Below are positions 51,631 through 64,000 of a DNA stretch of 64,000 nucleotides, in pieces. Origin of the DNA: Candidatus Schekmanbacteria bacterium (GTDB taxonomy: Bacteria; CSSED10-310; JACPHN01); assembly GCA_016188575.1 (NCBI GenBank), contig JACPHN010000216.1, positions 24,579 through 88,578 on the forward strand. Direction: 5' to 3'. The position numbers and the translations under genes were made by a program. The first letter of the stretch is position 1. Every line of letters starts with the position of its first letter. The notes beneath the pieces were generated by a model that searched no databases, was not told where the DNA came from, and saw only the letters and a list, made by a program, of their open reading frames with translations.

Positions 51631-51711
51631 ATCCAACGCCGACCGGGCCGCCTGACGGGCGCCGGGTCAGCGGCAGCGCGCAGCGCCGTCCGCTGGAACC
51701 GGTTGTTAGGC
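51631..51711 (-). other. attC-like integron site
   Basis: On the minus strand it runs from GCCTAAC (51705-51711) to GTTGGAT (51631-51637), both canonical cores. The inner arms CAGCGGC and GCCGTCCGCTG pair with an extra T. Length 81 bases. It separates the SRPBCC and HXXEE cassettes. Confidence 0.85.
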
Positions 51712-51727
51712 CGCGAATCGAACGCCC

Positions 51728-52309
51728 TCATCGCGCTCTCCGTTCTTTCGCCCGTTTAGCCCTGAGCATCTCGCCAGTGATGAGATAATGCTCAAGCTGT
51801 GAAAAGAGCTTCTGCAGCCTGGTCTTCAGACGGTTGCGCGCTGATCCCCCAACGAACCAATTCCCAACGTGCGTGACCGCGGTTGCAGTGCACCTGGCCT
51901 TGACACTACTTGTGCCGTCAGGGCGGTCAAAAAGCGATAGCTCCACCTTCATGACGACGTGGTTTGCGAATACGGCGGCTTCGAACAAGTAGTTCTCGGG
52001 TTCATGACGCGTCAGAACCCACGTTTCGTAGGTTGCCAAGTTGACAAACACACAGTCCTTCTCCGCATACCCCGAATCCGAGTAAAGAATTTCGCACTTC
52101 CAGTTCTCGATCCAGTCATATTCGCGCTTGGGGCAGAGGAGCGGGAATACCTTATCTGCTGATGCCGGCAACGCTTGTTCATGTTCGACTACGACCCGCT
52201 TAGCGCGGAACTGGCTACCGCGGAGCATCCAAGCGCGAATTGCCAGCAACAGCGAGGTCAGGGAATGCGCAATGCGCAGAGCACGCGTCCGAAGTAAGTT
52301 TGCCATCAT
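51728..52309 (-). CDS. SRPBCC (START-like) family protein with N-terminal anchor (cassette gene)
   Basis: 193 residues from the ATG at 52309; the longer open frame would run through the neighbouring attC and is not real. Residues about 3-28 are hydrophobic (ALRIAHSLTSLLLAIRAWML), an anchor. Then comes a lipid- or ligand-pocket SRPBCC domain: EHEQALPASADKVFPLLCP, YDWIENWKCEILYSDSG and a C-terminal long helix rich in Arg/Leu. Ligand unknown. Framed by attC-like sites 24 bases upstream and 16 bases downstream. Confidence 0.78.
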   Translation of the reverse strand: MMANLLRTRALRIAHSLTSLLLAIRAWMLRGSQFRAKRVVVEHEQALPASADKVFPLLCPKREYDWIENWKCEILYSDSGYAEKDCVFVNLATYETWVLTRHEPENYLFEAAVFANHVVMKVELSLFDRPDGTSSVKARCTATAVTHVGNWFVGGSARNRLKTRLQKLFSQLEHYLITGEMLRAKRAKERRAR

Positions 52310-52332
52310 GTTATGTTCTAACTCCCACGGTG

Positions 52333-52394
52333 GCCTAACGGGCGCCGGGTCAGCGGCGGCGCGCAGCGCCGTCCGCTGCATGCTGTTGTTAGAC
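52333..52394 (-). other. attC-like integron site (canonical)
   Basis: 62 bases bounded by GCCTAAC (52333-52339) and GTTAGAC (52388-52394), perfect RYYYAAC and GTTRRRY cores. Inside, CAGCGGCGGCGC pairs with GCGCCGTCCGCTG leaving one extrahelical T. It overlaps the stop codon of the small ORF to its right. Confidence 0.9.
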
Positions 52395-52601
52395 CGTGTC
52401 GAGCTTCGCCGGCTGAGATTCCTTCTGGCTCGGCGTTGCATCGACGCGCGCTGGCTCCGCGACCGCGATCAGCCAATTAGCCATGATACTGGATAGACTG
52501 TTGGACGGTGCAGTTGTCTCGACCACGGGCTGCGACGCCGCGGAGGAGGTGCCGTCCTTGAACGTGATATGACTCGAAGAGTTCTGCATATCAGGTCTCA
52601 T
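52389..52601 (-). CDS. Small cassette ORF of unknown function
   Basis: 70 residues from the ATG at 52601, overlapping the end of the protease-type gene by 11 bases; its stop lies in the attC core, as cassette genes commonly end. Ser/Ala/Thr-rich with MANWLIAVAEPA as the only hydrophobic stretch. Could be a small accessory protein or non-functional. Low certainty. Confidence 0.4.
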   Translation of the reverse strand: MRPDMQNSSSHITFKDGTSSAASQPVVETTAPSNSLSSIMANWLIAVAEPARVDATPSQKESQPAKLDTV

Positions 52602-53596
52602 GTCGCCATCCCTCAAATGATCGTGCGTCCGCTACCGCCTGCTGCATGACGCCTGGAGCAACCTGTATCTGCTGACGACTCAGCTTCCCCTCGGAAACGA
52701 AACGGTGACTGCCAGCAGCCGCACTCTCGATCAGTGCCCGAACGTGAGAATACTGCGCTAGAGGCTGACCCGCCAAGGGGGCCTCCGGGTTAAGCGGGGT
52801 TCCGAACTTCATCTCGTCAGCATAGCTACGGTGGAGGTCTCGAATGATAGCGTACAGCGCATCGGTCGGCCTCTCAACCCGGAGGCCGAGCTCGTCTCGC
52901 GCCTCCTGCCGGTAGATCGTGTAGTCGTGACTGCCGGACTCCGAGCAGAGGAAGTCCAACACCTTGTTGATACGATGCTCATCTGTGAGATGTCGCTTGA
53001 TTAGCCGGCTACCCAACATCCTGATCTGCGTCCGGCTACGGTAGACTTCACCAAGAACGAGCGGATGTACGCGGTCGGACAGTGCACGCAGCACGCCAAG
53101 CCGAGCATCCTCCGACGACAACCCGGCCTCATTCTTTGCAAACGCGATGTAACCGTTGATCGCCTCAACGCTCACCGGCGCACGCTGCTGGGGTGGTGCT
53201 CCGGGAATCTCCGGGTTCAGAGGACCGTTGACGCTCGGGTCAATCGGACCGAGCGTCGCTTGCCTCGTCAGCATGATCGAATCCGCGCCAAGGCACATCA
53301 AGGTTCCTGCGCTGTGGGCCTTGGCCGGCACGACAATTTCGAGGCGCTCGGTGAACTGGGCGGATGAGGTTGACGAGGCTCCACGCAGCCAGCGTGCTCC
53401 CTCCTCTCGTGTGTAGGAAGAGCGAAACCGTCTTGACCGTACCGATTCCGTCGAGGTGCTGGGCGAAGAAATCGAGGACCTCCGGATGGACCTGAGTTTC
53501 GAGTCCCGGCCGATCACCGGTGACGTATAGCAGCGCGGTACATGACCGGGCGGTCTCCCACTTCTGGAGCAGATCCTTCCGTGTCGAGTAGTTCAT
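52591..53596 (-). pseudogene. Frameshifted serine-dehydrogenase-type protease (SDH_sah/ClpP-like fold)
   Basis: Two frames join into one protein. The N-terminal frame (from 53596) reads MNYSTRKDLLQKWE, LYVTGDRPG, FLHTRGGSTLAAWSLVNLIR; the other frame continues QFTERLEIVVPAKAHSAGTLMCLGAD, with the nucleophile Ser in HSAGT. The break is at a CCC run (GGG at 53358-53360 on the plus strand): removing one base restores LVNLIRQFTERLE. The family consists of cytoplasmic SppA/ClpP-like serine proteases, including serine dehydrogenase proteinase. A real mutation or a base-calling error are equally possible. Confidence 0.78.
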
Positions 53597-53607
53597 AGTT
53601 CTCCTCG

Positions 53608-53835
<228 letters not shown>

Positions 53836-54373
53836 CTTTCCAAATCTCCAGGGGCGATCGGATCTCCAGCATCGGATAGCCTGCACGAAGATTGACCGCG
53901 TTGAATCCGTGGATGCGATCCAGGTTGACGATATGCCGGAAGTTCCAGCTCACCAGAACGTCGACCCTCGCCACTGTGGCGACGGCAATGTGCTGCGCGT
54001 CCGCGAGCATTCGCCGCGACACGACCGCTTGCTTGATGTACTGCTCCGCCAGTGCTTCAGACTCGGCGTCCTGATGGACCAGCTCCATGCACTCCCTCGG
54101 CAGGTTTTCGATGACCTTGCGAACCTCCGGCGGCGCGGAGGCAAGCTCAGCCAAGGTGGTGTCCGAGATCACGAGCACCGCGTCTCCTGCACGGCTGCGG
54201 TCGAACAGCCGGATCGAGGGCGTTCGAAACTCGTCATCGAGACAGCCGCCGATCACAGAGGTGTCGACGTAGACGCGGATTGCTCTCCCCGAACCAGACA
54301 TACCAGCATCCTACCTCTCGGACCCTTGCAGGCAACCCACGAAGGTTCCCGGCCTTGCGTGGATCACTCGGCC

Positions 54374-54434: not shown

Positions 54435-54813
54435 CCCGGTCTTTCTCCTCACCTTCCAAAGTCGTGGGACCGCCAAGAATCCACCGGCTGATCCGCATGC
54501 GGATAGTCGCGAGGCGTCCTTCGCCTACCTGGCCGATAGTGCCTTGAAGTGCCTCGGGGGCGACGACAGCAAGACGAGTAACGCGAACGAGGCTCGTCGC
54601 TTTCAGCCCTGTGGCAGAGAAATCCGGGTCGCTGTCGCGGATGATAACATCGGTGCCCGCGACCTCTTGATGCAGTCGCGTGGAGACCATACAGATGAGC
54701 CAGTCATCGTATCGCCCAGGTAGCCGCCGGACTAAAACAGCCGGACGAAGCCCACGCCCCACCTGATCGGTCTGAGGAAATCGGAAGAGAACAATCTGAC
54801 CTTCCAGAATCAC
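54412..54813 (-). CDS. MazF/PemK-like toxin (cassette gene)
   Basis: 133 residues from the GTG at 54813, which overlaps the antitoxin stop (GTGA). EGQIVLFRFPQTDQ, GRGLRPAVLVRRLPGRYDDWLICMVSTRL and SATGLKATSLVRVTRLAVV follow the MazF-like plug with the conserved RP and S/T positions. These toxins cut mRNA. The last 19 residues run into the attC and vary between cassettes. Confidence 0.75.
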   Translation of the reverse strand: MILEGQIVLFRFPQTDQVGRGLRPAVLVRRLPGRYDDWLICMVSTRLHQEVAGTDVIIRDSDPDFSATGLKATSLVRVTRLAVVAPEALQGTIGQVGEGRLATIRMRISRWILGGPTTLEGEEKDRGRTSAST

Positions 54814-55034
54814 CTGAATGATTCCTTGAGATCGGCTTCGGTGTAGGGAGTCTCTTCCCCCTCCATCCCGCGCATGGCCGAGGTGAGCGAAAAACCAGAC
54901 CAGGCAAGTTCCTCCTCGCGCATGGCGCACTCGTCGCGCCGGGACTGGATAAACTCGACAAAATCAAGTACCTCTCTTTGCGCGGAGTCCGGCAGCGATT
55001 TCAACCGCCGGATGATCGCTTCGGTTGTCGTCAT
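54810..55034 (-). CDS. DUF2281-like antitoxin
   Basis: 74 residues from the ATG at 55034 with GGAGG eight bases upstream. IIRRLKSLPDSAQREVLDFVEFIQSR is typical of DUF2281; the C-terminal part (GMEGEETPYTEADLKESFR) is acidic, as expected for a toxin-neutralising tail. Coupled to the MazF-like gene by a four-base overlap. Confidence 0.8.
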   Translation of the reverse strand: MTTTEAIIRRLKSLPDSAQREVLDFVEFIQSRRDECAMREEELAWSGFSLTSAMRGMEGEETPYTEADLKESFR

Positions 55035-55084
55035 GGTAATCACCTCCACGGGATAACCTACCACACTAGTCTCGACATTTCAAA

Positions 55085-55294
55085 GGCAGAACGGGGCGCC
55101 GGGTCAGCGGCAGCGCTCGAAGGTAGTTCACTACCGCAGGGCGCTGTCCGCTGCACCCGGTGGTTCTGCCGCGCGAATCAGCGCGGCGGAACCACCGGGC
55201 GATGCCTGGCGCCCCGTTCTTCCGACGCGCAGCGTCGGAAGAACGACGCAAATGAGCGGCGGCGTCAGTCGTCCGCTCGATTTGCTTGTTAGGT
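55085..55294 (-). repeat. Composite attC-like hairpin cluster U1
   Basis: 210 bases made of consecutive hairpins. A 93 kDa-type gene is absent. Parts: GGCAGAAC...GTTCTGCC (55085-55170, arms GGTCAGCGGCAGC and GCTGTCCGCTGCACC), a middle palindrome (55163-55218), a perfect 13-base stem GTTCTTCCGACGC/GCGTCGGAAGAAC (55216-55244), and a last attC-like unit ending with canonical GTTAGGT (55288-55294). The same units recur at 55890 and 62675. Confidence 0.75.
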
Positions 55295-55341
55295 GCGCTC
55301 AATCGCAATATCATGATGCCGGTTGCCCTTCAGGAGGACTT

Positions 55342-55581
55342 ATGGCCACGGAAACTTTGCGTAGGCTTCGTTCGGAGGCGCTGACGCTGCCCGAGGCAGA
55401 GCGCGCTGAGTTGGCGCACGAACTCGTCAAGAGCCTGGATGCTCCCGCCGACGCCGACGCCGCTGATGCATGGGATAAGGAAATTCTGCGCCGGCTTGCA
55501 GAGATTGATTCCGGTACCGCGAAATTTATCGATCGAGACGAATTCCGGCGACGGATGAAGGCACGGCTTGGCGACCGGTAG
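55342..55581 (+). CDS. Addiction-module antitoxin (cassette gene, opposite strand)
   Basis: 79 residues with AGGAGG five bases before the ATG at 55342. LRSEALTLPEAERAELAHELVKSLD and a WDKEILRRLAEIDSG region match the short addiction-module component family that pairs with ParE-like toxins. It runs against the orientation of all other array genes; its toxin follows with a one-base overlap. Confidence 0.82.
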   Translation: MATETLRRLRSEALTLPEAERAELAHELVKSLDAPADADAADAWDKEILRRLAEIDSGTAKFIDRDEFRRRMKARLGDR

Positions 55582-55895
55582 TGCGCCGGATACGAATCCT
55601 TCAAGAAGCCGCTGAAGAAGCGATCGAAGCGGCGGCTTGGTATGAGCGTGAGCGTGCCGGCCTTGGTGTGGAATTCTCGCAAGCCGTCGATGCTGCCATC
55701 GACCTTCTCGAAAAGGAGATCGTCCCCCTCACAAATATGCCCGGTGCAGCGGGTTCGCGCGGGGCCAAAAGACTCGTTCTGAAACGCTTCCCGTACGACA
55801 TCGTTGTGTGGGAGCTTCCCGAAGAAGTTGTCGTTATCGCTGTAGCTCATCACTCTCGACGTCCAGGGTATTGGCGTGGTCGTTTGCGCACCTAA
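55581..55895 (+). CDS. RelE/ParE-family toxin (cassette gene)
   Basis: 104 residues, GTG start. ILQEAAEEAIEAAAWYERERAGLG and FPYDIVVWELPEEVVVIAVAHHSRRPGYW are the family's front helix and beta-sheet with the HHSRRPGYW ending. ParE-type toxins target gyrase or cut mRNA. Its TAA lies inside the ACCTAAC core of the following attC cluster. Confidence 0.88.
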   Translation: MRRIRILQEAAEEAIEAAAWYERERAGLGVEFSQAVDAAIDLLEKEIVPLTNMPGAAGSRGAKRLVLKRFPYDIVVWELPEEVVVIAVAHHSRRPGYWRGRLRT

Positions 55896-56119
55896 CGGGG
55901 CGCCGGGTCAGCGGCAGCACCCGGAGGTAGTTTACTACCGTAGGGCGCTGTCCGCTGCACCCGGTTGTTCTGCCGCGCGGATCAGCGCGGCGGAACAGCC
56001 GGGCCTTGCCCGGCGCCCCGTTCTTCCGACGCGTAGCGTCGGAAGAACGTTTGACATGAGCGGCGGCTGAAAGCGGGCGAAGCCCGCTGGAAGACGTCCG
56101 CTCGATGGAAGGGTTGGGC
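55890..56119. repeat. Composite attC-like hairpin cluster U2
   Basis: 230 bases: ACCTAAC (55890-55896) to GTTCTGC (55967-55973), a middle palindrome, the same GTTCTTCCGACGC stem (56020-56048, loop GTA), and a final unit ending GTTGGGC (56113-56119) with arms GAGCGGCGGC and GACGTCCGCTC. Unit order equals that of cluster U1. The GGGGCGCCGGG and CCCGGCGCCCC ends enclose the first two units. Confidence 0.75.
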
Positions 56120-56120
56120 G

Positions 56121-56612
56121 TCATTGCGCCAGGCAGTAACCGTACCAGTACGCGGTAAAGCGCACGTGTTCATCGGATGTCTTGGACTCAGACGAAGGCT
56201 GCAGGTGAGCTTCATCCAACGCTGACAAGTCGGCCTCCTTCTGGAGTTCGACGACGTAGCGGCGGAAACCTACCATCCCGCCCATGCGGTTCCTTCCGTT
56301 AACCTCGCCGCACCAAAATAGCGGCTTGTTGCTCGAAGAATGTTCGTTGCGAAATGAGGCTGATTCAGGGTCAAACATGAGTTGCCTCACCGCTGCTCGT
56401 TGCCGCCCGGCAGGAGAGAGGAGTTCTTCCTTGGCGCGCCGCTCTGTCTCTGTGACAAGCATGGCCGCTCTGCGCTCGGAAATTGCCTGCCAAACGGCCA
56501 GTGCTGCGAGTGTTCCGAGGAATGCCGCCGCCGCAGCCGCGCCGACAAGCTTGGCGTATGTTGCCCACGAGATGCTCTTCTTCGAAACTTGCCGTTGTTC
56601 AGATTGGCCCAT
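56121..56612 (-). CDS. Single-pass membrane protein of unknown function (cassette gene)
   Basis: 163 residues from the ATG at 56612 (GGAG seven bases upstream). One membrane helix at about 22-44 (LVGAAAAAAFLGTLAALAVW), then a soluble domain with FDPESASFRNEHSSS and WCGEVNGRNRMGGMVGFRRYVVE, a motif I have seen in many uncharacterised small proteins of proteobacteria. The stop is adjacent to the GTTGGGC core of U2, as in cassettes. Confidence 0.7.
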   Translation of the reverse strand: MGQSEQRQVSKKSISWATYAKLVGAAAAAAFLGTLAALAVWQAISERRAAMLVTETERRAKEELLSPAGRQRAAVRQLMFDPESASFRNEHSSSNKPLFWCGEVNGRNRMGGMVGFRRYVVELQKEADLSALDEAHLQPSSESKTSDEHVRFTAYWYGYCLAQ

Positions 56613-59600
56613 GCACACACTCCTGCGCTTCCGATGACGCCCAACGTCCCGGTTCAGCGGCGGGCGGCTTCTTTGCCGTGCGCGTCGTTACCGGCTGCCG
56701 CTTGCGTGCCTTCTTCGTCCCAGGCGGTTTCGCATTCTGCTTGAGGTCTGCCTCGGTCAGCACCTCGCACCACGCGTTTGCCTGTTGCTGCTGAGCATCC
56801 GCGAGCCATTGCGGAGGTGATGGCGGATAGGGTCGCAGCTCTCGCTCGCCGAACGCGAACCAGACGACGGCGCGATCGCCCACATAATGCCGGAGCAGAT
56901 CTTCGCGAACGTACAGAACGTCTCCATCGAGTCCGTCGACACCGCTGAGCGTGATCGTGGCCGAGGTTCCGTCGGGGATGAAGTGGTGGAAGACCTGCGG
57001 GGCGCTGCGGAGACCGAACCGAGTAGAGAAGGGTTGGGATGGCACCAGCGCGCTCCCAGCACGGTTCATTTCGCTGTGGTAGCTCTCCCATGCGTAGTCG
57101 TGCGCGAGCACCTCGACCTCCACGTCGCCACCGTCGATGCGAACGTTCTCGCAGTACGCATGTTCCGCGAGCGCCATGAAGGCGAAGTTTGGGTGCCAGG
57201 GAATCTCGCCAGCGAAGACGTAGTGGTCGCTCGGAACGTCACGAGTCCCCCACGGCCGCGTCCCGCTTCTGAGAGCGGACGCCAGTTGCGGTGCGCTCTC
57301 CTTGTCCGTCACCAAGGCAGAGATGAAGGCCCACACCTCACGTCCGAGGACCCGGTCCTCAGCCTTGACGAAGCCGTGGACGGCGACCCACGGACCACGG
57401 TGGTCACCGATCGTGTCCCGGCGAAGGAGACTGCGCGGTACCGACGTGGTGCCCTCTCGTACCCAGCTCTCGTGGCTCTCCATGGTCGGCGACAGCCATA
57501 CCTCGGGAACCGAGGCCTCCCCATCGGTGGGCGGTTTCTCCGGGAATGACGGATCGATGTCGACGTCGGAGAACGGGCGACTCTCGCGTGGGAACAGCCC
57601 CCGCTCCTCGAGTAGTCCGGCGTACGTGAAGAAGCCGATCCAGCCGTACTTCTTACCGTAGCGCTCTGCATGAGGCCGATTCCCACGGCCGCCGTACCGA
57701 TACGCGTCCTCCACGATCCTGCTGTCCAGCGCTTCGAAGGTCGCTGTTCGCCATCCGAGCGCCCACACAACTCCTCGCACGTGGGCCACGGCCGCTTGAT
57801 GGCCCGCATGGTTCATGTCGTAGTTGCCACGGTCGTCGAACAGCCTCCCCAGCGTGTAGTTCTCGAAGTCCATGTTGAGCGTCCGCCCTGCCTCGTCGGC
57901 TCCTACATCGCCGTTGGCGAGGGGCTGGACCGGGGCAGGCGTGGCAAACGACCACGTGTCTCGCAAAGTGTCGGGGAGTGAGGACGCATAGAACTTCGCC
58001 GAGAACGCGACGATGCCCCGTACGTAGAGCCGCGCGAGGTAATGGTGCGTCGGAGCGGTTGCCGACGCCCCCACGAGCACTGCTGCAAGCTGCTCGAGAA
58101 ACGGGTTCAGGTAGGTTGCGAAGTCCGCGTCTGCATCCTGGTGGCTCATCACGACGCCGTACGACGCTGCGAGCATGCGCTCACCCACGTAGACGTCATT
58201 CACGGCCAGCGAGTCGATGGTCAATTCGAAGAGCCCTTCGGGATCGACGCGTCCGAACCAATAGAGCGCGCGCGTCGCTTGGTCCCGCAACCGCCGGACC
58301 GTGCTCGTGAGCGTCCAGATCACCCAGCGGGCACGCAGCCGATCACCCGCGCGCGTTTGCCCCGGCCGCCAGCGCCGCTCGAGGTGCTCGAGGTCGCGGA
58401 GTACTTCGTCTTGGTTCCTTCGAAGCCACTCCGTCCACCGGAGGTCGCGATCCGCAACCCCCATCGTTCGCAACGCTTGGTCCAGCGCCTCAGCGTTCAG
58501 CGGATGGCCTAGCGTGCCTCGTACGTCCCAGAGACGATCGAGAAGCCCGGCGTGTCCTTCGCGCACAAGTTCAAGCAACGCGTCGACAGTCGCCGCGTCG
58601 AGGAAAGCTGGTTCGAGACGGGCTGCCGACCGCAGAGCCCCACCACGCAGCGGCTCGTCAACCAACTGCCAGAGCTGCTTCGAGTGAAATCGTCGAGGGA
58701 GCTGCCCAACCGACGACGACACGACGTCGTCGGCGAGTGGATGGCGGACGTTGTAGTCGCCAGCCAGCAAGGTCGTTGTGGAAGGCTCTCGGATCCACGT
58801 CTCGAAGCCGAGCTGCCCATGCTTCGCGAGCAGCGCGGTGGCAATTAAGTGTCCACCGAGCTGGTCGTACACGGGTACGTACGCACCGTTCCCGTTCGAA
58901 GGCATGCGGAGCAGGACCCCCTCATGCTCCAGCGCACGGACGAGGCTCTGGTCCCACGGGCGCTGCGCGTCACCGAGGACTTGCCGCAGCTCGTCGATGT
59001 CGATGGATCGAGCTCGCGAGTCCCACAGCTTGTTGGCGATGGTCGCCAGCGCCGTGCGCACGTCCTGCGCGAAGTACCGGTGCGTTCGAGGTGCTAGCTC
59101 GGCGACCCGATCGCCTACTTGCTCCAGGTAGCGGTCGAAAAGTGCAGTCAGAGACCCCGGCATCGCGTCGACGCCGACGACCTTGTGCCGCGTCGGATTC
59201 GTGACCTCGCAGAAGAGCCGCAGGGTCAGCGGGTGTCGTAGGAATCCCGGCAACGAGGCATCGGTTGCATCGATCTTCCAGTAGCGGAAGTGCTCACGAA
59301 TTGCATCGACGGCGTCGGCCCCATAGCCGTTGATCTCGACGCGACGCGTTCCATCTGGAAGCGCGTCGCCCACAAATTCGGGCCGCAACGTGCAGACCAG
59401 CAGCACGTACGGATAGCTTGCGAGCGAGGCCTCCAACGAGGCGAGCAAGGGCTTCCATGCCCGTGGATCTTCCGACTCGTTGAGCCCGTCGATGACCACG
59501 GGCAACCGGTGGCGAGCGCGCTGCCCGGCGGCATCTACCGCTGCGAGCAGGGCTTCCATACTCGGAACAGGCTGAGCCGCGACCAACACTCGGCGGGCCA

Positions 59601-60702
59601 AGTCGTCGAGGGTGTGGTTCGCGTGTAGGTCGCGGCCATGCAGCAGCACGCCGTGCGGACGCAAAGCAGCTCCTGCCGTGAGCTGCGCCGCGAGGTGCGT
59701 CTTCCCACAGCCTGCGGGCGCTAGAACCGCGACGACGCGGGACGAAAACGCGATCTCGACATCGCCGAGCAAGCGCACGGTGTCGTGGCATCCGGCGACG
59801 GCGTTCGTCGCGTACAGACCCGCCCGGTGATTTCCAGAACGCAGTCGCCGAGGGGCCGTGGCCACGTCGTGAGGGAGAACGCGTAGCTGTGAGATGAGTT
59901 CGTCGCGAAGGCGGTCGAGATCGCCGCTGCGGATGCCTTCAGCGACCCGGTCAAGGGCGTCCGCAGACTGCCTTGAAATTGTGACCACCCCCGTCAGCAG
60001 CGGCGCAAGCGGTCCAGGTACTGGCGGGGCTGCCTCCACGGCCTGAGCATGCTCGCGGAGCTCCTTTGACAGCACGTGGAGCACATCCCACGATTCAGAC
60101 TCGCCGAGCATGCGACGCAGGTCACGTTCGACTTCGCCGACGTGGTGAACGTCAGGCTGCCACCTCGCGCGAATCGGAGCGACGGCCTGTTCATGCCGCT
60201 CCCGCAGGATGTCCGGCGTCAGCACCAGCTCGCCGAAGTAAGTGCTGCGCAAAACGGCCGCCTGGCCCGCGAGATAGATGTCGACTTCGTCAGCAGTCCA
60301 GAGGTGGAGTGTCATTTTGGATGACAGCTCTTTGAACCACTGTTGGTCCTCTTTGGTCAGCGTGCGACGGGTCCACAACACCCAGTCTGTGAGGCCTGCA
60401 ACGTGAGCCTCCGCCTTGCCGATCCCGTCTTCAATATCACTCCTTCTCGTCGCTCCGAGCGCGCCACTTGGTGGAAGGTCGTACCACTTGCATTGCCAGC
60501 CCCACCAACGGCCAGGATCTCCAAGCGCGTCGCAGTGATGATCGAGCTTGAGATGGAACTCGACGCCCGGCTGGTTCGCGAGGGCACGAAAGACGCCGTA
60601 GCTGCCGAAGTTGCGGCGCACGATGCCCCTGCAGAGCAGCTCGAAGTTCTTCTCGGCGCCCCGTGGCAATCTCGTGAAGGCGTCCCAGTTCAGCGCTGGC
60701 AT
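56599..60702 (-). CDS. Predicted nuclease-STAND NTPase defence-type protein
   Basis: 1367 residues from the ATG at 60702 (CGGAG six bases upstream, 13 bases after the preceding gene). Residues about 1-140 look like a PD-(D/E)XK nuclease: KNFELLCRGIVRRNFG, GVEFHLKL, and WWGWQCKWYDLP as the QxK strand. Around 330 a P-loop NTPase begins: AVLAPAGCGKTHLAAQL (Walker A) and LPVVIDGLNESEDP (Walker B with the STAND-type DGLNE). A helical region and a large C-terminal domain (about 650-1300) with no motif I know follow, perhaps the sensor. The architecture resembles Avs and other STAND defence proteins. The extreme C terminus reads through a decayed attC-like sequence. Confidence 0.75.
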   Translation of the reverse strand: MPALNWDAFTRLPRGAEKNFELLCRGIVRRNFGSYGVFRALANQPGVEFHLKLDHHCDALGDPGRWWGWQCKWYDLPPSGALGATRRSDIEDGIGKAEAHVAGLTDWVLWTRRTLTKEDQQWFKELSSKMTLHLWTADEVDIYLAGQAAVLRSTYFGELVLTPDILRERHEQAVAPIRARWQPDVHHVGEVERDLRRMLGESESWDVLHVLSKELREHAQAVEAAPPVPGPLAPLLTGVVTISRQSADALDRVAEGIRSGDLDRLRDELISQLRVLPHDVATAPRRLRSGNHRAGLYATNAVAGCHDTVRLLGDVEIAFSSRVVAVLAPAGCGKTHLAAQLTAGAALRPHGVLLHGRDLHANHTLDDLARRVLVAAQPVPSMEALLAAVDAAGQRARHRLPVVIDGLNESEDPRAWKPLLASLEASLASYPYVLLVCTLRPEFVGDALPDGTRRVEINGYGADAVDAIREHFRYWKIDATDASLPGFLRHPLTLRLFCEVTNPTRHKVVGVDAMPGSLTALFDRYLEQVGDRVAELAPRTHRYFAQDVRTALATIANKLWDSRARSIDIDELRQVLGDAQRPWDQSLVRALEHEGVLLRMPSNGNGAYVPVYDQLGGHLIATALLAKHGQLGFETWIREPSTTTLLAGDYNVRHPLADDVVSSSVGQLPRRFHSKQLWQLVDEPLRGGALRSAARLEPAFLDAATVDALLELVREGHAGLLDRLWDVRGTLGHPLNAEALDQALRTMGVADRDLRWTEWLRRNQDEVLRDLEHLERRWRPGQTRAGDRLRARWVIWTLTSTVRRLRDQATRALYWFGRVDPEGLFELTIDSLAVNDVYVGERMLAASYGVVMSHQDADADFATYLNPFLEQLAAVLVGASATAPTHHYLARLYVRGIVAFSAKFYASSLPDTLRDTWSFATPAPVQPLANGDVGADEAGRTLNMDFENYTLGRLFDDRGNYDMNHAGHQAAVAHVRGVVWALGWRTATFEALDSRIVEDAYRYGGRGNRPHAERYGKKYGWIGFFTYAGLLEERGLFPRESRPFSDVDIDPSFPEKPPTDGEASVPEVWLSPTMESHESWVREGTTSVPRSLLRRDTIGDHRGPWVAVHGFVKAEDRVLGREVWAFISALVTDKESAPQLASALRSGTRPWGTRDVPSDHYVFAGEIPWHPNFAFMALAEHAYCENVRIDGGDVEVEVLAHDYAWESYHSEMNRAGSALVPSQPFSTRFGLRSAPQVFHHFIPDGTSATITLSGVDGLDGDVLYVREDLLRHYVGDRAVVWFAFGERELRPYPPSPPQWLADAQQQQANAWCEVLTEADLKQNAKPPGTKKARKRQPVTTRTAKKPPAAEPGRWASSEAQECVHGPI
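56639..56645 (-). other. Integron core half-site
   Basis: GCCCAAC, a canonical RYYYAAC core, followed on the plus strand by GTCCCGGTTCAGCGGC, the left arm of the local attC family. I cannot find a matching second core to its right, so the site looks eroded into the end of the STAND gene. Confidence 0.55.
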
Positions 60703-60715
60703 GGCGGCTCCGCGT

Positions 60716-61126
60716 TCAACGCCCTCTCCCGTATTCGGTGTCGGGGTAGTCGTGAGCCGAGTAGACCTCGATACGCGCACCGCGATCGAACATCACCTTG
60801 AGGAAGGCCGAGATGTCGATCTCCTCGGTCGTGAGGATGATCCTACTGGCCTCTACCTTCACGCTGACCTCGTAGAGGAATTGCTCAAGTTCTCGTGGCC
60901 CAATCGACGCGACGTTCAGCTTCCCCAATAGGTCGAGCATCGCATTGCCGTACCTTTCCGAAGGGCTGCCGAGGACGAGCGCTCCCTTGTCTTGGTCTTC
61001 CACGACCTGCTTCGTCAGCGCGTCGATGATCTCCTTGGCCTTCGTCGCTTCGGTGGCGTCCTTGAAATGGCCGATCATCACCAGGTTCGCGGAGTGCTCT
61101 GAGCCATGCTGGTACCAGATCCTCAT
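60716..61126 (-). CDS. Small protein of DUF6375 type
   Basis: 136 residues. MRIWYQHGSEHSANLVMIGHFKDATEATKAKEIID recalls DUF6375 proteins; the name is from memory. It is alpha/beta with a repeated-domain feel (a second half beginning SVKVEASRIILTTEE), no membrane part, no catalytic motif. It overlaps the radical SAM gene at ATGA and is followed closely by the STAND gene, so the three form one operon. It may be a substrate, partner or sensor; nothing decides between these. Confidence 0.65.
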   Translation of the reverse strand: MRIWYQHGSEHSANLVMIGHFKDATEATKAKEIIDALTKQVVEDQDKGALVLGSPSERYGNAMLDLLGKLNVASIGPRELEQFLYEVSVKVEASRIILTTEEIDISAFLKVMFDRGARIEVYSAHDYPDTEYGRGR

Positions 61127-62067
61127 ACGTCGCTCTCCGCGAGTTCGTGGGCGAGTTGATGGAGTGCCTTGAGCACGCCGCCCTCGCCGAGCGGCACGCC
61201 GGTCTCGTGGTACGAGGAAGGTTTGAGCACGCCCATCGCGTCGATGTGCGCGTAAGCACGAAGCCCGCGCTCTTCGACCAGCGGATCGCAGATCGGGAAA
61301 CCGTCGGCGCTCGCCTCGTTGATGCAGAGCTTCAGTGGGTCCCTGTACGATTCGACCCAGCGGCGAAGGCCCTGCAAGGTGCGCGGGGCGACTGCCGGGA
61401 CGCCTCGCACCGGCATCTGCGGGAGCAGCAACAGCTCGCAGGCCCCAGCATCCGCAGCAACGACGGCGGCCTCATCGAGGTCGGGCAGCGTGCGCTCGTT
61501 GATCACGACGTTGACGCCGAAGCGGGAGATGGATCGGACGTGCTTCAGGCGAGCGAGCAGCTCGGGGAAGGAGCGCCGGCGGATTGACTCGTAGGTTGCA
61601 CCGACACCATCCATGCTCACGCGGACGAAGTGGACGCTGCCTCGAAGGCCCTCGGCGAGAACGCCATCGATGTGGTGGCCGTGGGTCGTGAACGACACGG
61701 AGAGCCTGGTCTCGCGCGCCGCGTGCTGACAGAGCCTCACGAAATCTGGGTAGAGCGTGGGTTCACCGCCTCCGAAGCCGACGCCGAGAGCGCCATGGGA
61801 ATCGAACTCCGCCAACCAACGCGTAACGACGTCGAACCGAAGCTCGTCGCGGGACTTCGGGGCGTAGCAGTGAGCGCACGCCAGATCGCAGCGGTTCGTG
61901 AGCGCGATGGATACCTGCCGCGGCGCGCGCGAATGGAGCGAGGCAGGAACAGGGATCTCCTCGATGAGGACATGCAAGCCGGTGGTGCGGTTGAATACGT
62001 GGAGCCCCGCTGGACCGCCGCGCAACTTCCAATGGTCAGCCTGATAGTTGTCCGTCGAGGCTTTCAC
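61123..62067 (-). CDS. Radical SAM enzyme of the nuclease-STAND operon
   Basis: 314 residues from the GTG at 62067 with GGGGAG upstream. The iron-sulfur motif is CDLACAHC (CX3CX2C) in ALTNRCDLACAHCYAPKSRD; FGGGEPTLYP binds SAM; SVSFTTHGHHID and FVRVSMDGVGATYESIR follow. The C-terminal part has SPASM-like layout (ICDPLVEERGLRAYAHIDAMG) but too few cysteines for an auxiliary cluster. It resembles peptide- or protein-modifying radical SAM enzymes rather than viperins. Confidence 0.82.
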   Translation of the reverse strand: MKASTDNYQADHWKLRGGPAGLHVFNRTTGLHVLIEEIPVPASLHSRAPRQVSIALTNRCDLACAHCYAPKSRDELRFDVVTRWLAEFDSHGALGVGFGGGEPTLYPDFVRLCQHAARETRLSVSFTTHGHHIDGVLAEGLRGSVHFVRVSMDGVGATYESIRRRSFPELLARLKHVRSISRFGVNVVINERTLPDLDEAAVVAADAGACELLLLPQMPVRGVPAVAPRTLQGLRRWVESYRDPLKLCINEASADGFPICDPLVEERGLRAYAHIDAMGVLKPSSYHETGVPLGEGGVLKALHQLAHELAESDV

Positions 62068-62134
62068 TACCGTACGACTCCCCTGTTACTTCGTACAGCT
62101 TCCAAAGATCACGTTTCGTCGCTTCATAGATCAC
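62036..62134 (-). CDS. Possible 32-residue peptide before the radical SAM gene
   Basis: From a GTG at 62134 the frame reads VIYEATKRDLWKLYEVTG and ends SLDGQLSG, overlapping the first 32 bases of the radical SAM gene. Composition is protein-like, but the nearest GGAGG is about 20 bases upstream, too far for a normal start. It may be a leader peptide, a RiPP-type precursor, or chance. Confidence 0.25.
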   Translation of the reverse strand: MIYEATKRDLWKLYEVTGESYGSESLDGQLSG

Positions 62135-62165
62135 GCCACAAATGGTGACGCCATGACCTCCGTGC

Positions 62166-62238
62166 CGCTAACGCTGGCCATCACCGGCGGGAATGGAGCG
62201 TAGCGGAATTCCCGTCCGTGTGCATGGCCTTGTTGGAA
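62166..62238 (-). other. attC-like integron site
   Basis: About 73 bases between CGCTAAC (62166-62172) and GTTGGAA (62232-62238). Arms GGCCATCACCGGCGGGAAT and ATTCCCGTCCGTG...GGCC pair with unpaired bases. It follows the stop of the broken cassette gene at 62258 on the minus strand. Confidence 0.75.
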
Positions 62239-62257
62239 GGCAGTTCTTTTTGACGAT

Positions 62258-62668
62258 TCATACGTGCCAGTCTAATAGTGCGCCTGTCTTCTTGTTGAAT
62301 ATCAAGACCAAACAAACCTCTGCCAAATTCTGTTCGTCCTCAAACTTGTGTTTGTATGGAATTCGGACATTAATCTCGACTCCTATACTCCCCACTTTAT
62401 CTTCATACCCCATTGTGGATTGAGCATCTGACCAGCCATCAAATCCAGACTGTCCATTATGGGCATATTCAATTCTATCTGATATAGCTTCCCAAAAGTC
62501 CGGCCAAGAGAGAGAACGTTCCCATTGAAACTCACCAAGTTAATCCTTCTGTGAGAGTTGAATCACTCCTTGCTTGGGGGTCGTTTCAAACGGATATGGA
62601 TAGTCTATCGAAACCTCAAGCCTATATGTGAATCGATCGGAATAGTCTTCTTCAAATATCTCTTTCAT
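62258..62668 (-). pseudogene. Cassette gene interrupted by an in-frame TAA
   Basis: 137 codons from the ATG at 62668 to TGA at 62258-62260, open except for TAA at codon 43 (62540-62542). Before it: MKEIFEEDYSDRFTYRLEVS ... QGVIQLSQKD; after it: LGEFQWERSLSWPDFWEAIS ... EVCLVLIFNKKTGALLDWHV. Codon use and amino-acid composition continue unchanged on both sides, so this was one gene. AT-rich relative to the chromosome. Family unknown to me. It lies between two attC-like elements. Confidence 0.7.
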
Positions 62669-62674
62669 AGTTCC

Positions 62675-62817
62675 TTCCAACGGGGCGCCGGGCCTTGCCC
62701 GGCGCCCCGTTCTTCCGACGCGCAGCGTCGGAAGAACGCCTCACATCACCGGCAGCAAAAAGCAGAGCGAGTAACGAGCGGCGCTTTTTGCTGTCCGAGT
62801 GCATGTGATTGTTATGC
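62675..62817 (-). repeat. Composite attC-like hairpin cluster U3
   Basis: 143 bases: a tight palindrome AACGGGGCGCCGGG / CCCGGCGCCCCGTT (62679-62711), the GTTCTTCCGACGC stem (62709-62737), and a last unit with arms GGCAGCAAAAAGC and GCTTTTTGCTGTCC ending GTTATGC (62811-62817). It is U1/U2 without the long first unit. Confidence 0.75.
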
Positions 62818-62826
62818 AAACTTGCT

Positions 62827-63780
62827 TCATTTTCGTTTAAGCTCTACCACTAATCTAAGCACCTCTTTAGGAGGCTTTCCTAGAGATTCTTTAAGCCAGG
62901 GGATATGCTCACTCCATGTAAAATCATCTTCATGACCAGGATGAGCAGATGCGTTTCTTAAATCCACAAACGAAGGACTTTCTTCATTATAAGGATGCTT
63001 GTCTTCAAGAAATTGAGATAGTTCTTGAACTTTCAGTGCGTAATTTTTGCAAAACGGTTCAGCTTTTTCGTTTATTGTGACAAATAAATCTGTACATTGA
63101 TTCATAATGTCATCCGACCAGAATTTTGAGACAAAAACCAATTGCCCTAAAGTAGGCGGATGGACTGGTGGTTCGGAACACGATTTTAATGTGCCGAAGG
63201 TGATTTCTCTTGTCTTTATTCGCTTCAATACGTTTTTTGACGCATCCGATGGTATGCTGAAAACGGCTTGTTGAATTAGTTCGATCCATTTCGTAAACAA
63301 AATGTCAGCAGTTTCTCTCTCTAGAACTTTGCACAAAGAAAAGACAACTTGACTCCATCCTCTCAATACTCCCTTTTTCAACATTATTTCAGTAACAAAG
63401 GCATCTACTAATTCTCGGCGAGATGATTCATCTATTTTTCGCCACACATCTAGTGAAAGGTAGTCTACCCAAAATCTTTCCCCGGCGAGCCTGATATTTT
63501 CTAGTGTTTCAGTAATTGACTCGGAACCTATCGTAGAATACTCAGCTATAATTTCCGTAACTTGTTCTTTTCGTTTCTTGAGTTCTTCAGTAACACGGAT
63601 CGCTTCTTCTTGTCTTTCAGATTCATTTAAAAATTCAACAATCAAATTTGCGCCATTCCAAAGTGCATCGTCATTGTGCGCTGTTGTTTGTGCCTCCATA
63701 TAATGAATTAAAAAGAAATCAATACCTCGTGAATCATATATTTCACAGGCAATTTGTCTTCGCTCTGGCGTAAGGCGCAT
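62827..63780 (-). CDS. AT-rich cassette gene with a HEPN-like motif, unknown function
   Basis: 317 residues from the ATG at 63780. Nearly all helical and rich in Lys, Glu and Ile, in strong contrast to the Ala/Arg-rich chromosome, so recently acquired. Close to the C terminus LRNASAHPGHEDD fits the R-x4-H motif of HEPN RNases, preceded by long helices (YALKVQELSQFLEDKHPYNEE). HEPN proteins cut RNA in toxin and abortive-infection systems; the match is to one short motif only. Its stop lies ten bases from cluster U3. Confidence 0.55.
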   Translation of the reverse strand: MRLTPERRQIACEIYDSRGIDFFLIHYMEAQTTAHNDDALWNGANLIVEFLNESERQEEAIRVTEELKKRKEQVTEIIAEYSTIGSESITETLENIRLAGERFWVDYLSLDVWRKIDESSRRELVDAFVTEIMLKKGVLRGWSQVVFSLCKVLERETADILFTKWIELIQQAVFSIPSDASKNVLKRIKTREITFGTLKSCSEPPVHPPTLGQLVFVSKFWSDDIMNQCTDLFVTINEKAEPFCKNYALKVQELSQFLEDKHPYNEESPSFVDLRNASAHPGHEDDFTWSEHIPWLKESLGKPPKEVLRLVVELKRK

Positions 63781-63829
63781 TTCATAAAGTGGAATTCGGC
63801 CTCGTTCATCGTTTGGGCCACGGCAAAGG

Positions 63830-64000
63830 TCATGCGGCGTGCCAATAGGCGCATGAACGTGCCCGCGCCGGTCGGGCGGGAACTTCGAGGCCGTCCAGCA
63901 GCCAGTCAAAGAGGTCGCGGGGCCTCGACCCAAAAAATCTCTCGGCAGCAGTGGTTCCGTCCGAACGGCGGAGGAAGTAGTTGTGGATCGTGGTCAGCAC
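63830..64000 (-). CDS. C-terminal end of a probable transposase (continues beyond the window)
   Basis: The minus-strand frame is open from the window edge to TGA at 63830-63832, giving 56 residues. TIHNYFLRRSDGTTAAERFF and RPRDLFDWLLDGLEVPARPA match what I recall of transposase C-terminal ends. GC-rich again. It lies 49 bases upstream of the HEPN-like gene's start codon, so an insertion may have brought or flanked that gene. Confidence 0.5.
   Translation of the reverse strand: MLTTIHNYFLRRSDGTTAAERFFGSRPRDLFDWLLDGLEVPARPARARSCAYWHAA

Follow-up and report, generated by a model that had tools for sequence, protein, structure and literature searches.

An Avs2-related STAND protein co-inherited with a radical SAM enzyme and a DUF6375 protein: a candidate three-gene anti-phage system

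Why should a relative of a bacterial immune receptor travel with a radical S-adenosylmethionine (SAM) enzyme and a small protein of the family DUF6375? The locus that raises this question lies in a 64,000-nucleotide stretch of a Candidatus Schekmanbacteria genome (assembly GCA_016188575.1, contig JACPHN010000216.1, positions 24,579 to 88,578), and we call this whole stretch the window. A check of the open reading frames (ORFs) in the window confirmed three genes on the minus strand, in the order radical SAM enzyme, DUF6375 protein and a STAND protein of 1367 residues (Table 1). The stop of the first gene and the start of the second share 4 bases (ATGA), and the STAND gene starts 13 bases past the DUF6375 stop. 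The first-pass annotation of this DNA had described three tightly packed genes and had named the first two families, and both descriptions were borne out; the DUF6375 protein scores 149.7 bits against a gathering cut-off of 27.5 for PF19902. With our judgement about evenly balanced, we propose that the trio is an anti-phage system, in which an Avs2-like nuclease receptor works with a DUF6375 protein matured by the radical SAM enzyme as its obligatory subunit or regulator.

We examined 18 other loci that carry DUF6375, nine of them from representative genomes, five from plasmids and four from further sampling. The radical SAM gene is directly upstream of DUF6375 in all 18, the Avs2-like gene is directly downstream in 17, and the 4-base overlap between the first two genes is kept in 15, which is far beyond what chance would give. 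In the remaining locus, from Deinococcus peraridilitoris (L014, 7402-8519), an IS3 element sits right after DUF6375 with the radical SAM gene still in place, and we attribute the lack of an adjacent STAND gene to this insertion. The nine genome loci were all complete (9/9 for both partners) and come from Acidithiobacillus, Rhodopirellula, Pelagibius, a cyanobacterium, Halomonas, Acinetobacter and three metagenome-assembled genomes (deltaproteobacterial, Syntrophobacterales and Phycisphaeraceae). In a collection of 72,556 plasmids we found DUF6375 in 16 records (Synechococcus, Picosynechococcus, two Deinococcus and twelve Vibrio), and the five that we opened had the radical SAM gene in 5/5 and the STAND gene in 4/5. 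Sampling about 1,545 further genomes gave four more loci, each with all three genes. Altogether the trio occurs in at least six phyla (Pseudomonadota, Planctomycetota, Cyanobacteriota, Thermodesulfobacteriota, Deinococcota and the window organism's own small phylum), and its order and spacing persist at identities as low as 31-35%, whether the replicon is a plasmid or a chromosome. It is a mobile cassette of three genes that moves horizontally. DUF6375 was not found in viral contigs and phage records, and a near DNA match to the Vibrio operon was not found in E. coli genomes. In one STAND gene (L049, 6763-10800), codon 135 is an in-frame stop and the rest of the frame is open; this is a broken copy or a sequencing error.

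Are the three genes also specific to each other? On plasmids, the 16 full-length relatives of the radical SAM enzyme and the 16 of DUF6375 are in identical records, and the next-best radical SAM matches have <36% identity over less than half the length. All plasmid STAND relatives that align over most of the protein at about 33% identity or more belong to DUF6375 records; DUF6375 is missing from the records of the weaker relatives (Haloplanus, Burkholderia, Acetobacter and others). It had been said at the outset that the idea of a system would fall if relatives of the 1367-residue protein usually occurred without the other two genes. We found that close relatives (>=31% identity over most of the length) always have both partners, apart from the one copy disrupted by an insertion sequence, and that remote Avs2-like relatives, mostly at 25% or less, stand alone; neither a radical SAM nor a DUF6375 gene flanked the remote relatives that we inspected in five genomes and three plasmids. 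In a tree of 22 STAND proteins, the 16 with partners form one clade with support 100/100. Pairwise comparison of the three proteins' distance matrices gave r = 0.90-0.97, a level reached in 0/2000 permutations. Since the operon sits among attC-like repeats, where cassettes shuffle, it could in principle be a set of unrelated neighbours gathered by integron and plasmid shuffling. The co-inheritance data from the collections searched led us to reject plain coincidence, as the arrangement holds across that range of phyla, replicons and identities and the partner-bearing proteins are a single clade; we consider it hardly credible.

The 1367-residue protein is, by sequence comparison, a distant relative of Avs2 (AVAST type 2). 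The PADLOC Avs2 models match it up to about residue 902, Avs2 is the only solved relative that a sequence search with the whole protein found (9o4e, residues 326-853), and Pfam recognizes its NACHT domain weakly (0.0017). An Avs2-type central STAND NTPase is thus present, with a P-loop kept in all complete copies and a Walker B motif in nearly all. The first-pass annotation had read the protein as a nuclease joined to a STAND NTPase, and this architecture stands, although the kinship with Avs2 had been overlooked. The NCBIfam Avs2 model (NF041813) matches at 1e-55 with 189 bits, under its curated cut-off of 1000 bits, and all 11 related genomes or records are likewise under it. Like Avs2, the protein has an N-terminal PD-(D/E)XK nuclease, a STAND NTPase and a long C-terminal region; unlike Avs2, which is a single-gene system, its close relatives all come with two extra genes, and its identity to most standalone Avs2-like proteins is about 25% or lower. 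Because it falls below the cut-off and is not a single-gene system, we call the trio an Avs2-related three-gene variant and not Avs2 itself. The sensor role that we assign to the C-terminal region is presumed by analogy with Avs2, whose activators are the phage large terminase or other phage proteins.

We next consider the N-terminal region, because the system idea had also been said to depend on a nuclease fold there. The region does have one. A profile of the first 200 residues matched the N-terminus of Avs4 (8dgf), with NQPGVE...WGWQCKWYD in the window protein aligned to NQSGIE...IGWQSKFYD in Avs4. This sequence match was present with one alignment (A3) and disappeared with a smaller one (A5), so we rely on the fold search: an AlphaFold2 model of the domain (predicted local distance difference test, pLDDT, 83) has Avs4 as its top PDB match, followed by the restriction enzyme MspJI. 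The domain carries a GxE...QxK signature in which E48, Q70 and K72 show little or no variation. A PD-(D/E)XK fold is therefore well supported by model and sequence, and nuclease activity is predicted. Avs4 is the closest solved nuclease fold and has the NQxGxE...GWQxK motif in common with the window protein, but the remainder of the window protein matches Avs2, not Avs4. We know of no radical SAM or DUF6375 partner of Avs4. The nearest standalone relative (L067, 5505-9389), a protein of 1294 residues, has the C-terminal RYGKKY region without the GxE...QxK nuclease motif; in this protein a different effector may be joined to a similar sensor.

What might the enzyme modify? The AlphaFold2 model of the DUF6375 protein has a ferredoxin-like order of strands and helices with a helical insertion. 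We found no convincing solved relative by sequence, and structural look-alikes were many and weak (Foldseek best E 0.036; VIA-align Z at most 6.5, with many unrelated ferredoxin-like proteins), so we claim only the broad ferredoxin-like fold. Ahead of this domain, residues 1-12 (MKIWxxxGSEHS) have a pLDDT near 38 and a mean conservation of 0.86 versus 0.61 elsewhere in the protein. The start of the gene is fixed by the ATGA overlap, so these residues form a genuine N-terminal tail. For a substrate site one would expect just such a combination of flexibility and near-invariance next to a modifying enzyme, although a docking peptide would look identical. We rejected thioether chemistry, as DUF6375 relatives have no conserved cysteine, and a C-terminal core-peptide model, as the C-terminus is variable among relatives. 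The STAND protein itself could be the substrate, with DUF6375 as chaperone or adaptor, and the obligate linkage of the three genes, with DUF6375 sitting between the other two and tracking the STAND protein, would fit. However, no radical SAM enzyme accompanies the standalone Avs2-like proteins, which have the same nuclease and NTPase motifs, and no conserved exposed tail was identified in the STAND protein, so we find this improbable.

Two papers describe Avs2 proteins as binding a phage protein through their C-terminal part, oligomerizing in an ATP-dependent manner and activating an N-terminal effector (PMC12724215, PMC12931631), and we transfer this mechanism to the 1367-residue protein because it is homologous. 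During infection, the C-terminal part of this NLR-like receptor would bind a phage protein, the STAND NTPase would then oligomerize, and the N-terminal nuclease would cut DNA, stopping phage growth and probably costing the cell. The radical SAM enzyme would mature the co-encoded DUF6375 protein, most likely in the tail (W4, G8, E10, H11, S12), and the mature protein would act on the receptor, either licensing it to assemble or keeping it inactive until a phage infects. That the receptor is so constantly paired with these two genes suggests that an NLR-like immune system of bacteria incorporates an unusual chemical modification. More tentatively, the modification that the enzyme would install on the tail may itself be the receptor's switch, with the receptor reading the modification state and possibly guarding SAM, redox or iron-sulfur (Fe-S) status while a phage infects.

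A number of observations weigh against a matured DUF6375 partner in anti-phage defence. The trio is rare, occurring in about 7 of the approximately 1,545 sampled genomes (centres of the sampling not counted). The low pLDDT of the tail may just reflect a missing partner, in which case its conservation could mean docking and not modification. No cysteine beyond the core motif is invariant in 19 radical SAM sequences, so the C-terminal auxiliary-cluster cysteines that are a feature of SPASM/twitch maturases are not conserved. Viperins and MoaA are among the nearest solved relatives of the enzyme, alongside the peptide enzymes SkfB and PqqE. In the nine closest systems the radical SAM distances correlate poorly with the others (r = 0.12-0.32; r = 0.12 with DUF6375). 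Those of the STAND and DUF6375 proteins remain correlated (r = 0.87), which hints, in a small sample of sequences, that the radical SAM genes may be exchangeable and that DUF6375 may be the direct partner of the STAND protein. Such a correlation, as direct partners would give, and the strict co-inheritance of all three genes also suit a guard or decoy, in which the receptor is held inactive by modified DUF6375, and the nuclease is freed when a phage depletes SAM, reductant or Fe-S clusters or breaks DUF6375 down. We think this unlikely, since Avs2 relatives sense phage proteins directly (PMC12724215, PMC12931631), and activation by loss of a modification is conjecture.

The radical SAM enzyme itself has a core cluster motif, CX3CX2C, whose three cysteines are its only invariant ones, and profile searches place it closest, among solved structures, to SkfB (the best PDB match), viperins, a tetraether lipid synthase and PqqE. 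Could it make an antiviral or signalling small molecule, as viperin makes chain-terminating nucleotides? DUF6375 would then bind or transfer the molecule, and the STAND nuclease would be a second arm or be controlled by the ligand. The matches to models of prokaryotic viperins (pVip, 1.3e-14) and to solved viperins (3.6e-11), the single Fe-S cluster motif with no conserved SPASM cysteines and the arrangement that DUF6375 has in common with PII, CutA1 and Pcc1 (Z 5-6) are consistent with such a role. But the enzyme scores 44 bits against the viperin model NF038283, whose cut-off is 180, and on that score we rejected its identity as a viperin; mycofactocin MftC and GeoRSP models score higher, and the best PDB match is a peptide enzyme. 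The PII and CutA1 matches are within that fold's background, and the conserved disordered tail would be left unexplained. We regard a small-molecule product as doubtful.

Modification of DUF6375 within an Avs2-like receptor system would resemble, and differ from, several known systems. AVAST type 1, Hachiman, Lamassu and DRT systems recurrently acquire a gene pair that adds an activation step to a defence core (PMC12799240); there the pair is a metallo-beta-lactamase nuclease with a trypsin-like protease, and here it is a radical SAM enzyme with DUF6375. NTP-dependent conflict systems, such as the ternary ones with VMAP and FtsH, carry a radical SAM enzyme whose predicted substrate is a peptide effector encoded alongside it (PMC7159879), but there the enzymes are fused to SPASM or of the Memo/AMMECR1 type, the cores are vWA-based and the peptides are short. 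The window operon has an enzyme without auxiliary-cluster cysteines, a folded partner of 136 residues and an Avs2-like receptor. Prokaryotic viperins are also radical SAM enzymes of anti-phage defence with a related core domain, and the window enzyme differs by falling far under the viperin cut-off and by being strictly tied to both DUF6375 and a STAND nuclease. No PADLOC model matches DUF6375. In the full-text literature that we searched, which excludes bioRxiv and holds few subscription journals, no paper names DUF6375 or PF19902 and none contains both Avs2 and radical SAM. Avs proteins are bacterial relatives of NLR immune receptors, and the Avs2 type has been described as sensing phage proteins unaided, so the finding of a clade only ever in the company of a small partner and a radical SAM enzyme implies an extra layer of control by protein chemistry. 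If our proposal is true, DUF6375 gains a function and the radical SAM superfamily gains a defence role beyond viperin. The versions in Synechococcus, Picosynechococcus, Acinetobacter and on Vibrio plasmids are compact, cultivable test systems.

Table 1. Positions in the window of the three genes, their domains and the flanking attC-like elements.
Feature	Position	Strand	Basis
Radical SAM enzyme, 314 aa, GTG start, CX3CX2C (C60, C64, C67) and GGGEP	61123..62067	-	PF04055 4e-14
DUF6375 protein, 136 aa, ferredoxin-like core and conserved N-terminal tail	60716..61126	-	PF19902 9.2e-44; AlphaFold2 pLDDT 83
DUF6375 residues 1-12, codons (MRIWYQHGSEHS); W4/G8/E10/H11/S12 invariant, predicted disordered, proposed modification or docking site	61091..61126	-	
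Avs2-like STAND protein, 1367 aa	56599..60702	-	PADLOC Avs2 1.9e-93; PDB 9o4e Avs2 9.6e-19
Predicted PD-(D/E)XK nuclease domain, residues 1-160, E48, Q70-x-K72	60223..60702	-	profile 8dgf 3.7e-6; fold 8dgf 3.2e-6
STAND/NACHT NTPase core, residues 322-467, P-loop AGCGKT, Walker B VVIDGLNE	59302..59739	-	Pfam NACHT and motifs
C-terminal region, residues about 620-1367, presumed sensor, RYGKKY and NYTxGxL motifs	56602..58845	-	Avs2 models, motifs
attC-like hairpin, ~100 bases upstream of the radical SAM start, ends TTCCAAC...GTTAGCG	62166..62238	-	fold
attC-like element downstream of the operon, GCCCAAC...GTTAGG	55893..56118	-	related repeats at 55090 and 62687

The operon had been placed in an integron-like array, and this was partly upheld. 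There are attC-like elements on both sides of it, and the stretch 62160-62245 folds to -36 kcal/mol. However, the core sites are imperfect, with the ends of the upstream hairpin off the strict attC consensus, and the two integron integrases above family cut-off in this genome are both on other contigs. A check for defence islands had been suggested as well. Some loci do have defence genes as neighbours of the trio: Gabija (GajB) at L004, a DRT/RTasSbcB protein and the XamI restriction enzyme at L002, and, on a conjugative plasmid of Vibrio (L015, 12915-16372), immediately following the trio, a SIR2-family protein of about 1,270 codons that is perhaps a second large defence gene. Most large neighbours, scanned individually, had no defence match, so the enrichment is suggestive. 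A phage-defence setting is supported by the homology and by some of these neighbours.

Several other features of the window are worth recording. A 165-residue ORF with an N-terminal hydrophobic segment (56121-56618, minus strand) overlaps the 3' end of the STAND gene within the same attC-bounded stretch, and a family search with it gave zero matches above cut-off. The stretch 62000-64000 has a G+C content of 46%, compared with 60-69% elsewhere in the window, and the 368-residue ORF there (62827-63933, minus strand) has no family match, so we think that this stretch was probably recently acquired. Three 64-base attC-like repeats of the GCCTAAC...GTTAGRC type lie in 51650-53672, spaced as cassette boundaries. 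A probable PIN-domain toxin is at 53795-54301 on the minus strand (0.00035, below the Pfam cut-off), and the small ORF at 54810-55064 on the same strand could be its partner. Finally, 55252-55895 is a two-gene cassette that encodes an antitoxin of the Unstab_antitox type (4e-14) and, on a weak match (0.029), a ParE-like toxin. A 174-base repeat flanks the cassette, and its copies at 55090 and 55894 are 90% identical.

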